The translations under genes and the position numbers were made by a program. Below, piece after piece: positions 2,128-28,534 of a stretch of 32,569 bases of DNA (the stretch's first letter is position 1; each line of letters starts with the position of its first letter). The notes below the pieces were generated by a model. It saw nothing but the letters and a program-made list of their open reading frames with translations, had not been told where the DNA came from and searched no databases. The DNA is from Duncaniella sp. (GTDB lineage: Bacteria; Bacteroidota; Bacteroidia; Bacteroidales; Muribaculaceae): the NCBI GenBank assembly GCA_029052375.1, contig JAIDJD010000334.1, positions 1 to 32,569 on the forward strand, written 5' to 3'.

Positions 2128-4599
2128 ATGCTCAGACGCACAGCCTACATCCTGATTCTCATCCTTGCCTCAGCCCTCAACGCCTCGGCCACCATGGCCA
2201 CAGGGGCGTGGAAAAACTATCCCGTGGCAGGCGAGTTCTCTCACCTCATAGATGCCGGACAGCGTGTCTGGTATGTCTCCGGAGGCCGCCTCAGCTATTA
2301 CGACAAGGAGGCCGGCGAGACATACTCGTACGAGGCCGGACGTGACCTCAGCGACTTTGTCATCACGGGCCTCTACCGCAACAATGCAGGCAGATACGTC
2401 GTGGTCACATACGACAATTCCAACATAGACATCGTCTATGACGACGCCTCGAAAGGCGTGGTCAACATCCCCGACATCCGCGACTCGGCCATCAACGCCG
2501 ACAAGACTGTCACCTCCGTGGCCTTCCATGGAGACAACATATATGTAGGCACACTCTTCGGACTGGTGATCGTAGACGAGAAGCGAGCCGAAATCAAAGA
2601 GTCAGGCATATACAACAGCCACGGCATCAACTCGCTGTGCGCACTTGCCGACGGCCTGCTGATATCCCCCTCGGGATACAGCGACGACCACTACCCCCTG
2701 CTCTTCCACCGCTGGGGAGAGCGCATACACCGCTACGAGAACTTCACCGTGCTCATGCAGGATGCCGGCCACACCTTCACGTCGCTCACGCCGCTCGGAG
2801 GCAATATGGCGGCCGGACGTCAGTGGGGACGCGCAAAGCTCATACAAGCAAAGCCGTCGGTGCCCGGCGCCGGATTGGGCAACATCTACACCTCCTCTTC
2901 CGTCTACGAGTTCTCCCGGCTCCCGGACAAGGGCGTGGCCTTCCTCTCCACGGACGGATATCTCTGTTCCACCGACTCGCTCGGCCAGCTCTCGCAGTCG
3001 CGCTACGCGCTTCCGGAATCACTGCGCAAACAGCTCATGTCCACCTCGGGGAGCTATACACGCGGCTTCTGGCTCGCATCCGAGGATGGCCTCGGCGAAT
3101 ACCGCATACGTGAGGCCGACGGGTCGACCGAAGTGCTTCGCGACAAGAGCCGTCCCTCGGACGCCACCACCTTCAGCTCTATCTGCCGCATCTATCCCGA
3201 CGCCTCGGGACGCGGCTTCATAATCTCAAATCTCGGCACCAATACCGGACATCCCGTAGGCAAGGGAGACCGAATGGACATCCCGATGAAAGCCGATGCC
3301 TACATAGACGGTCAATTTACCGAGATAGACCCCGAGGTGACCACCTCCAGCAGTTTCACACAGGGCATCCAGAACTCGCTCGGAAAGAAGAAAGTCCTAT
3401 GCCCCACATGGATTTCTGAAGACCCCGACACTCCGGGACGCTATTACATATCCTCCGGAGCCGAAGGCCTCTATGTCGTGGACGGGAACAAGCAGGTGGC
3501 CCACTTCACCGAAGCCAACTCGCCCTTCTACCGTCCCTGGATGCTCTTCTGCTCCTACAACACCATAGACCACAAGGGCAATCTATGGGTTGCATCGACA
3601 ACTCTAACCAGCGGCAAAACTACCGTCTTCATGCTGCCAGCCGAGAAACGCCGCCGCGCCGACCTCTCGACCATCACCAAGGCAGACTGGGTAGAGACCG
3701 CTTTCGGCAACACCATTTTTGAAAAGGATGCATTCCTTGTTGTATGCAGACACTCCAACATCGTCCTCTCCTTTGACAGACATCCCTCTACCGCCTTTGA
3801 GGCGCTGCGCCACAACGGCAACCTCACGGATGCGGGCTCGTTCCGCTACGCATCATGGCCCTCTGTCACAGACACAGACGGCAAAGCCTTTGCTCCCAGC
3901 TGGAGATGCGGGGTTGAAGACAAGAAAGGCACTGTATGGATCGGGACTGACATGGGCGTTGTCACCATACCCAATCCCAACTCCGTCATGGAATCAGGAT
4001 TTGCCATCAACCGCGTCAAGGTGCCGCGCAACGACGGCACCAACCTGGCCGACTACCTGCTCGAGAGCGAGAACATCATAGCCATAGCCGTAGACAACTC
4101 CAACCGCAAGTGGATAGGCACGGCCAACTCCGGCCTCTACCTGGTCAGCGAGAACGGCGACGAGATAATATCCCACTACACCACAGACAACTCGCCACTC
4201 CCCTCCAATGCCATCTGCGGCCTCCATGCCGACCCCTCGTCCAACTCTCTGTTCATAGCCACGCTCTCGGGCCTGCTTGAGTTATCGACAGACTCCTCGC
4301 CCGCCATGGACGACTATTCAGAGGCCTATGCCTATCCCAACCCCCTGACACCCGACTATACCGGATGGGTGACCATCACGGGCCTCATGGCCGACTCTAT
4401 GGTAAAGATCGTAGACCAGAACATGAACCTCGTCTACCAGACCACCTCTGAGGGAGGCATGGCCACATGGGACGGGTGCAACATGAACGGACAGCGCGTC
4501 CGCTCGGGCGTCTACTACGTGCTGGCATCGTCCGGCGGAGAGAGCGCGGCCTCGGCCTCATCGGCGGCGGTGGCCACCAAGATTCTTGTCATAAACTGA
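2128..4599 (+). CDS. PorZ-like beta-propeller protein with a C-terminal T9SS CTD-like domain
   Basis: 823 aa with signal peptide; WKNYPVAGEFSHLIDAGQRVWYVSGGRLSYYD…DNSNIDIVYDD…IPDIRDSAINADKTV resembles the PorZ N-terminal propeller; C-terminus AYPNPLTPDYTGWVTI…ATWDGCNMNGQRVRSGVYYVLASS…KILVIN is CTD-like. Confidence 0.75.
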   Translation: MLRRTAYILILILASALNASATMATGAWKNYPVAGEFSHLIDAGQRVWYVSGGRLSYYDKEAGETYSYEAGRDLSDFVITGLYRNNAGRYVVVTYDNSNIDIVYDDASKGVVNIPDIRDSAINADKTVTSVAFHGDNIYVGTLFGLVIVDEKRAEIKESGIYNSHGINSLCALADGLLISPSGYSDDHYPLLFHRWGERIHRYENFTVLMQDAGHTFTSLTPLGGNMAAGRQWGRAKLIQAKPSVPGAGLGNIYTSSSVYEFSRLPDKGVAFLSTDGYLCSTDSLGQLSQSRYALPESLRKQLMSTSGSYTRGFWLASEDGLGEYRIREADGSTEVLRDKSRPSDATTFSSICRIYPDASGRGFIISNLGTNTGHPVGKGDRMDIPMKADAYIDGQFTEIDPEVTTSSSFTQGIQNSLGKKKVLCPTWISEDPDTPGRYYISSGAEGLYVVDGNKQVAHFTEANSPFYRPWMLFCSYNTIDHKGNLWVASTTLTSGKTTVFMLPAEKRRRADLSTITKADWVETAFGNTIFEKDAFLVVCRHSNIVLSFDRHPSTAFEALRHNGNLTDAGSFRYASWPSVTDTDGKAFAPSWRCGVEDKKGTVWIGTDMGVVTIPNPNSVMESGFAINRVKVPRNDGTNLADYLLESENIIAIAVDNSNRKWIGTANSGLYLVSENGDEIISHYTTDNSPLPSNAICGLHADPSSNSLFIATLSGLLELSTDSSPAMDDYSEAYAYPNPLTPDYTGWVTITGLMADSMVKIVDQNMNLVYQTTSEGGMATWDGCNMNGQRVRSGVYYVLASSGGESAASASSAAVATKILVIN

Positions 4600-26886: not shown

Positions 26887-27450
26887 TTATTCGGCGGGGC
26901 GCAGCTCCAGGGGCACCTCGTCTGAGGCCGCCACGGTGTCGGCCGCCACGGTGTCGGCAGGCTCGGGTGCGTTGAGCGAGCCGTCGTGGATGGCATCATA
27001 CTGGGTGAGCCTCTCGCGGAAGGCCGCCGCCACAGAGTCGAAGTTGACAGAGGGGTTCAGCCTGCGGGCCTTCTCGAAAGCCGCGCGGGTGTCGGCGGGA
27101 TTGGCCGAGAGAGCTATGTCGTAGACATCCACATACTTGCGCAGGGTCTCGAGGTCTTTGCGTGTCTCCTTGGCCCTGACAGCCTCGTTGTGGATGGTGA
27201 GGAAGGCCGTCAGCACCTGCACGGTCTGTTCGGGCGTAAGGTCGTCCACCATCAGCGCCATGCTGTCGGCCATAGCCGAGGCCTCGCCGAGCTGTCCGCC
27301 GTTGAGGGCCACAGCCAGGCGCGAATTGTTCTCCTCGTTGGCGCGCAGCACAGCCCCGTCGGCCTCAGGCTCGGCCTTCTCTGCCTTCTGGCCGCAGGAC
27401 ACCGCAATGGCTCCGACCACAGCAAGAAGCAAATAGAGTATCTTCTTCAT
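26887..27450 (-). CDS. Hypothetical lipoprotein
   Basis: 187 aa; signal and lipobox MKKILYLLLAVVGAIAVSC; helical, low-complexity Ala/Glu content. Confidence 0.75.
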   Translation of the reverse strand: MKKILYLLLAVVGAIAVSCGQKAEKAEPEADGAVLRANEENNSRLAVALNGGQLGEASAMADSMALMVDDLTPEQTVQVLTAFLTIHNEAVRAKETRKDLETLRKYVDVYDIALSANPADTRAAFEKARRLNPSVNFDSVAAAFRERLTQYDAIHDGSLNAPEPADTVAADTVAASDEVPLELRPAE

Positions 27451-27461
27451 ATATTTGTATG

Positions 27462-27718
27462 AGTTTAATGTTTAGGGCCTTGCGGCCTGGGGTTTAAAGT
27501 TTAGCAAGGCCTGCGGCCTGGGGTTTAAAGTTTAGGGCCTTGCGGCCTGGGGTTTAAAGTTTAGCAAGGCCTGCGGCCTGGGGGTAGTTTAAAGTTTAGG
27601 GCCTTGCGGCCTGGGGTTTAAAGTTTAGCAAGGCCTGCGGCCTGGGGGTAGTTTAAAGTTTAGGGCCTTGCGGCCTGGGGTTTAAAGTTCAGCAAGGCCT
27701 GCGGCCTGGGGGTTTGGT
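27462..27718. repeat. Tandem array A: ~8 alternating 29-35 bp units, [GTTTAAAGTTTA][GGGCCTTGCGGCCTGG] / [GTTTAAAGTTTA][GCAAGGCCTGCGGCCTGG]
   Basis: GCGGCCTGG recurs at 27482, 27513, 27542, 27573, 27606, 27637, 27670, 27701 (spacings 31/29/31/33/31/33/31). Confidence 0.97.
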
Positions 27719-27753
27719 TTAAAGTTTAACAAGGTCTACACCTCGTCAAGAAA

Positions 27754-27969
27754 TAAACTTTAAACCGCGCGAAGCGCCTCATCAAGAAATAAACTTTAAA
27801 CCTGAGAGCGACGCTCCTAAACCTTAAACCGCGCGAAGCGCCTCATCAAGAAATAAACTTTAAACCTGAGAGCGAAGCTCCTAAACCCTAAACTGCGCGA
27901 AGCGCCTCATCAAGAAATAAACTTTAAACCTGAGAGCGAAGCTCCTAAACCCTAAACTGCGCGAAGCGC
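27754..27969. repeat. Tandem array B: 64-bp unit GCGCGAAGCGCCTCATCAAGAAATAAACTTTAAACCTGAGAGCGAAGCTCCTAAACCCTAAACT, 3 full copies plus ends
   Basis: GCGCGAAGCG at 27767, 27831, 27895, 27959 (exactly 64 bp apart); TAAACTTTAAAC at 27754, 27790, 27854, 27918. Confidence 0.97.
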
Positions 27970-27973
27970 ATCC

Positions 27974-28534
27974 TCACCGCCTCGGGGCGCACTTAACGGG
28001 ATAGTCACAGCGCACCTTGCCCGATATCATGGCGTTGAGCTTGCCCTTGAGCAGGCGGCGGCGTATCATCGAGACGTGGTCTATGTAGAGGCGGCCGTCG
28101 AGGTGGTCACACTCATGCTGCACGATGCGGGCCAGGAAGCCCGAAATCTCGCGCGACTGAGGCTTGAAGTCGGCGTCAACCCAGTCGAGGCGGATATGCT
28201 CCACGCGCGCCACCTTCTCAGAGAGGCCGGGGAGGCTGAGACACCCCTCCTCGCGGCTCACGGGCTCGCCGTCGAGCACGGTCACCACAGGATTGATGAG
28301 CGCGAATTTCTGGCCCTCGCACTCCGGAAAGCTCTCCTTGAGGCCGTCGGCGTCTATCACCACTATCTTTTCGGCCAGGCCTATCTGCGGAGCGGCCAGG
28401 CCGCAGCCGTCAGAGGCATACATGGTCTCGAACATATTGTCAAGGAGCTGGGCCAGGCCTTCGCGGCCCTCGGCTACATCGGCACACTCCTTGCGGAGCA
28501 CGGGGTGGCCATACACATATACGGGTAGTTTCAT
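27974..28534 (-). CDS. def: Peptide deformylase
   Basis: 186 aa from the ATG at 28534; MKLPVYVYGHPVLRKECADV…GCGLAAPQIGL…EEGCLSLPGL…QHECDHLDGRLYID. Confidence 0.94.
   Translation of the reverse strand: MKLPVYVYGHPVLRKECADVAEGREGLAQLLDNMFETMYASDGCGLAAPQIGLAEKIVVIDADGLKESFPECEGQKFALINPVVTVLDGEPVSREEGCLSLPGLSEKVARVEHIRLDWVDADFKPQSREISGFLARIVQHECDHLDGRLYIDHVSMIRRRLLKGKLNAMISGKVRCDYPVKCAPRR

Follow-up and report, generated by a model that had tools for sequence, protein, structure and literature searches.

Why does a gap of 523 bp (27451-27973), nearly all of it repeat, separate two minus-strand genes, the peptide deformylase gene def and a small lipoprotein-like gene, when the same gap measures 5, 21 and 46 bp in three congeners that share this gene order? 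The gap lies in the window, by which we mean the whole stretch of 32,569 nucleotides that was analysed. An initial annotation had seen in it two blocks of tandem repeats in opposite orientations, and had offered a REP/BIME-like or MITE-like family, a cruciform element or a regulatory spacer of the lipoprotein gene as possible explanations.

Structure of the gap

As listed in Table 1, the gap holds two arms of 12-nucleotide cores that meet at a short junction. The cores of array A start at 27463, 27492, 27523, 27552, 27587, 27616, 27651, 27680 and 27717, two of them with one change, and alternate with the hairpins GGCC-TTGC-GGCC and GGCC-TGC-GGCC. In array B the exact cores start at 27754, 27790, 27854 and 27918 and the variant cores, with 1-2 changes each, at 27818, 27882 and 27946, alternating with the hairpins GCGC-GAA-GCGC and GAGC-GAA-GCTC. 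Direct reading and the core scan agree with the initial annotation on about nine plus-strand copies in array A (seven exact, two variants), and all the GC hairpins that it named beside the cores are present. Its four copies in array B are the exact reverse complements, and the three variant cores had gone uncounted. The picture of modular AT-cores and GC-hairpin cassettes in arms facing each other is borne out, and these modules are dispersed through the genome.

Table 1. Positions of the arrays and flanking genes in the window, and of unit-bearing centres at other loci
Feature	Position	Strand	Basis
Small lipoprotein-like gene, without Pfam family	26887-27450	-	Pfam search
Array A: nine GTTTAAAGTTTA cores (7 exact)	27463-27728	+	direct reading, core scan, TRF
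Junction where the arms meet, belonging to neither array	27729-27753	.	direct reading
Array B: seven reverse-complement cores (4 exact)	27754-27957	-	direct reading, core scan, TRF
Peptide deformylase gene def	27974-28534	-	Pfam PF01327, E 3.3e-47
Centre with 9-10-bp units	L039 about 240-290
Centre with 9-10-bp units	L053 5770-5830
Centre with 9-10-bp units	L061 about 3260-3300
Centre with 9-10-bp units	L114 about 1930-1980

When up to 2 mismatches were allowed, the 32.6-kb window was found to contain 18 core matches, 16 inside the arrays and 2 elsewhere, against an expectation of 0.24 for the whole window from dinucleotide-preserving shuffles. Successive cores follow at a period of 28-37 bp with the hairpin spacers between them. 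TRF resolves each arm into a composite unit of about 64 bp, with 4.2 copies and 95% matches in array A and 3.5 copies and 96% matches in array B, whose right limit it extends to 27976. Copy number may be inexact in the source MAG, as other arrays of the genome hold N runs or sit at contig ends. Array B, reading GTTTA... downstream of def, adjoins the stop codon of that gene; array A, reading TAAAC... upstream of the lipoprotein-like gene, lies 12 bp from the start of the latter. Of 26 other genomes of the genus that were searched, 25 have an orthologue of the lipoprotein-like gene. Near the 3' end of its coding sequence in the window there is also a perfect 15-bp tandem repeat, GGCCGCCACGGTGTC, in 2.2 copies (TRF, 26926-26958). 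The Rfam scan of the window gave no match, and no intrinsic terminator, that is, a GC hairpin with a T tract, was predicted in 27300-28100.

Distribution of the family

Is the repeat confined to this gap? A search for the core in the genome and its relatives, as proposed in the initial annotation, found 96 exact cores in the source genome (G000; 2.28 Mb, 481 contigs, 86% complete) and 0 of the reversed control. The arrays sit between unrelated gene pairs throughout this genome, and in the window they lie inside a pair that is tightly packed in relatives, so the suggestion of a spacer specific to the lipoprotein gene does not hold. A single construction is used across the genome, in which GTTTAAAGTTTA (or GTTTAGGGTTTA, GTTTAAGGTTTA) alternates with GC cassettes 16-20 bp long; it occupies dozens of further gaps here and in the sister species G011. 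In both genomes the core usually runs for two heptads before a hairpin cassette breaks it, and long uninterrupted heptad tandems are not the rule. The outermost units vary by locus, being GTTTAAA, GTTTAGG or GTTGAAA.

Among the congeners, G011 has 58 exact cores, another species (G015) has 34, and most other members of the genus have 0-2. The arrays of G011 bear hairpins like those of G000; those of G015, a genome 99% complete, are mostly bare heptads such as GTTTAAAGTTTAGAGTTTA, mostly without hairpins. Searches of phages, plasmids and IMG/VR with the array or the core gave no match, and a scan of named genomes with GTTTAAAGTTTAGGGCC found, beyond the sister Muribaculaceae MAG, only isolated matches in three other records. 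The array family is fast-changing and lineage-specific, and is akin in kind to known bacterial intergenic hairpin repeats.

Polarity and placement

Is there any rule in where the arrays lie and how they are oriented? Gaps were assigned in G000, G011 and G015 by a purpose-made simple codon-usage gene caller, which is crude at start codons, and whose stop positions and strands should suffice for gap counts. In the three species all plus cores lie left of all minus cores in 27 of 27 two-armed gaps. Where a gap has one orientation only, the cores are nearer the expected gene end (plus left, minus right) in 28 of 31 cases, the three exceptions being plus cores in G015. None of the 59 array gaps is divergent, versus 32 of 162 other gaps (p 2.3e-5). 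The motif TAnnTTTG, the -7 promoter motif of Bacteroidetes, is also rarer in array gaps (5 of 46 tandem array gaps vs 37 of 111 other tandem gaps, p 0.003), and it is absent from the def/lipoprotein gap of the window.

Then what causes the polarity? Base composition fits at starts, where regions without arrays are likewise G-poor in G000 (G 0.13, C 0.27), but it does not fit after stops, and the G-bearing arm there is left unexplained by the background. Stop codons in all frames were rejected as the sole cause, because on sequence inspection the GTTTAAA heptad has a stop in both orientations.

Growth and turnover of gaps

The def/lipoprotein gap is not the only one that is long in G000. Another gene has arrays on both sides, in gaps of 131 and 274 bp, and in 25 congeners, with one exception, these gaps do not exceed 92 bp. 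In G011 the same two gaps (L148) contain other short repeats, the nonamers GATAGCTAN and ATAAGACTT and TCAACTT or AATTCTC heptads. The short gaps of the congeners and the different repeats at the same gaps of G011 indicate that gaps grow by lineage-specific short repeats with rapid turnover. Identity at lag 7 in array gaps is 0.42 in G000 and 0.41 in G011, and strict lag-7 and lag-14 windows are enriched also in gaps of other congeners, including those without a GTTTAAA array. The GTTTAAA-plus-hairpin repeat is one of several lineage-specific short-repeat families growing in gaps. Only 2 gaps with GTTTAAA arrays are common to G000 and G011, and 1 to G011 and G015. Together with the other repeats at the same gaps of G011, the few gaps common to G000 and G011 show that the sequence lacks the conservation expected of a functional site.

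Hairpin cassettes and folding

Perfect stems of at least 4 bp are found in 51 of the 69 distinct cassettes of G000 and G011, while shuffles give a mean of 5.5 and a maximum of 12. The stems have several alternative sequences, a pattern that selection for pairing, or a copying process favouring it, leaves behind. On the TAAAC strand, the loop is C-GAA-G or C-GCAA-G in 69 of the 96 cassettes with a perfect stem; GCAA is a GNRA tetraloop, and GAA is the triloop of the mini-hairpin d(GCGAAGC), which is very stable. As RNA, the gap folds better than its shuffles, with z -7.7 in gene sense and -4.0 in antisense. The likeness of cassettes between the two arms is weak (0.18 within a gap vs 0.07 between gaps, permutation p 0.03). 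Thus the GC hairpins probably act locally, with the AT cores supplying the long-range complementarity.

Discussion

What process could produce such arrays, and do they have any role? The family, its construction, its polarity, the hairpin cassettes, the absence from divergent gaps and the short gaps in relatives are direct observations. From them we tentatively propose that heptad repeats and hairpin cassettes gather in transcribed, promoter-free gaps and form a BIME-like spacer at the RNA level, a reading whose chance we put a little short of even, and for which we infer the transcription, the origin by slippage and the effect on mRNA. The family would have grown within its lineage by local expansion, through slippage or recombination, of a heptad-type core. 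This core, GTTTAAA GTTTA, is of one form with the GTTTAGG, GTTGAGA and ATTGAGA heptads found nearby and in relatives, and would have been joined with the GC cassettes of 16-20 bp. The arrays would accumulate downstream of stop codons and within operons, in promoter-free gaps that are presumed to be transcribed. A transcript of either strand would carry GUUUAAAGUUUA in its 5' arm and UAAACUUUAAAC in its 3' arm, so the gap could fold to one long hairpin that bears the short GC hairpins along its length. The sequence by the downstream start is G-poor and A/C-rich, as at ordinary starts of G000. Such a structured mRNA spacer may protect the upstream message at its 3' end and uncouple the two genes. 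Against it count that no T-tract terminator is predicted, that few array gaps are shared by G000 and G011 and the same gaps hold other repeats in G011, and that the G-bearing orientation after stops has no background explanation. If the RNA-level role is true, the arrays would serve as transcript-boundary elements in bacteria in which 3' ends have been little characterised.

Could the arrays have no function at all? Slippage may expand heptads and hairpin-prone units wherever they are harmless, with promoter gaps purging them and starts tolerating only the G-poor orientation. The excess of period 7 and period 14, which many congeners show in their gaps with differing heptads, is what such growth would give, as are the rapid turnover at the same gaps and the G-poor ordinary starts. 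It leaves unexplained, however, the conservation of hairpin stems with their loop identity, and the strict opposite orientation after stop codons, convergent gaps included; we regard neutral growth as a possible but somewhat unlikely account of the whole. A mobile element of the MITE kind, with inverted ends, an internal minisatellite as in BrickBuilt and a transposase acting in trans, seems unlikely. The inverted polarity and the filled versus short gaps in relatives are what it predicts, and it has a precedent in Bacteroidales (PMC4596501). However, no constant terminal inverted repeats were seen in the inverted arms: the units at the outer ends differ between loci, and many arrays have a single arm; G015 follows nearly the same polarity rule with bare heptads that lack cassettes; and no copy was matched in phages, plasmids or IMG/VR. 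No target-site duplication was seen, the orthologous gaps of relatives being short and too diverged for base-by-base alignment, and no partner transposase with matching ends was found among Y1 transposases, the sole type searched. What survives of the MITE-like suggestion is the inverted arms and the empty sites in relatives. A bolder idea, which we consider improbable, is that an active process throughout the genus writes 7-bp-phased repeats of fixed polarity into gaps, such that the G-bearing strand reads into the gap from each gene end; the heptad word would change by species, and hairpin cassettes would be added in some, to build structured transcript boundaries.

The remaining explanations have far less in their favour. 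Short palindromes in high copy in intergenic DNA recall a REP family mobilised by a RAYT, and G000 has a Y1 transposase gene, as do 13 of 27 congeners. The count of Y1 genes follows the count of heptad tracts over 27 genomes (Spearman rho 0.62, uncorrected for phylogeny and assembly quality), but its correlation with the GTTTAAAGTTTA count is not significant (rho 0.29, p 0.14). Only 2 of 118 cassettes carry the GTAG tag and 7 of 118 CGTC, and other palindromes, never the array repeat, flank the Y1 gene of G000 and those at the 20 congeneric loci examined. Membership of the REP/RAYT family fails on the terminal tag and on these unrelated transposase flanks, and mobilisation by a RAYT is most improbable. 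The REP/BIME-like suggestion of the initial annotation keeps its BIME-like part, that is, the placement in non-divergent, promoter-poor gaps. The search for a RAYT that it advised found a single Y1 transposase gene in G000 (L071:4540-5480, contig C401), whose flanks carry a different palindrome, AAATACGCCTCGCGAGAGGCGTATTT, and a GAGAATTGAGAATT heptad tract. A cruciform or nucleoid-protein site, in which the extruded hairpins matter in double-stranded DNA, would agree with inverted arms and with GAA and GCAA loops on one strand, and these loops are favourable in single-stranded DNA too. The absence from divergent, promoter-bearing gaps points rather to a transcript context, and we know of no protein partner; such a DNA-level element is very unlikely. 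The chance of an assembly artefact is negligible. The MAG is in 481 contigs and some of its arrays have N runs or lie at contig ends, but many arrays are short and lie far from contig ends, and the same architecture recurs in G011, which was assembled separately, and in a form without hairpins in G015 (99% complete).

How do the arrays compare with known systems? As in REP/BIME, where short hairpins cluster between genes, in many cases downstream of a gene, and are plausibly transcribed (PMC3733652), their hairpins are clustered and intergenic; here the arrays are absent from divergent gaps. They differ in having stems of 4-6 bp, no GTAG/CGTC tag, no cognate RAYT flanks, an AT-core between hairpins and a strict plus-then-minus polarity across the gap. 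Heptamer repeats are known as TAACTGA in Beggiatoaceae, cyanobacteria and a few Bacteroidetes, and as the GGGAATC type in Xanthomonas and Nostoc; the 7-bp phase, intergenic position, orientation to gene ends and patchy distribution are common to them and our arrays (PMC4679880, PMC4692102). Here, however, the heptad is another one, hairpin cassettes lie between the cores, divergent gaps are excluded, and each gap may have two inverted arms where the known tracts are one-directional. BrickBuilt, a minisatellite MITE of Porphyromonas gingivalis, is likewise a Bacteroidales intergenic element of tandem units in an inverted-repeat setting (PMC4596501), but its 23-bp units have no spacers and lie between a fixed leader and tail, and it has promoter activity; the present arrays are spaced by hairpins, have no constant leader or tail and avoid promoter gaps. 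Another Bacteroidales repeat is also high-copy, lineage-specific, intergenic and without a known mover, but is a dispersed 188-bp unit without terminal inverted repeats and not a hairpin-cassette array (PMC4755523). The arrays combine heptamer repeats with hairpin repeats, both of them known kinds, and their rules of orientation, placement and loop identity in a Muribaculaceae lineage are unusually clean; no description of the family or of its two-armed heptad-plus-hairpin arrangement was found in the literature, within open-licence texts. Even if the arrays are neutral, they explain the growth of gaps inside operons, and probably some breaks of MAG contigs in this group too.

Two further observations concern the two-armed layout. 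Other heptad vocabularies occur as inverted arms in one gap, GTTTTAG/CTAAAAC and TGATTCA/TGAATCA (L199 and L200; G019 and G001), which suggests that the layout extends beyond GTTTAAA. Several two-armed gaps (Table 1) have at their centre another repeat, made of 9-10-bp units, for example TATTGGTCCAATAAGAC or ATAAGACTT, that are partly palindromic.
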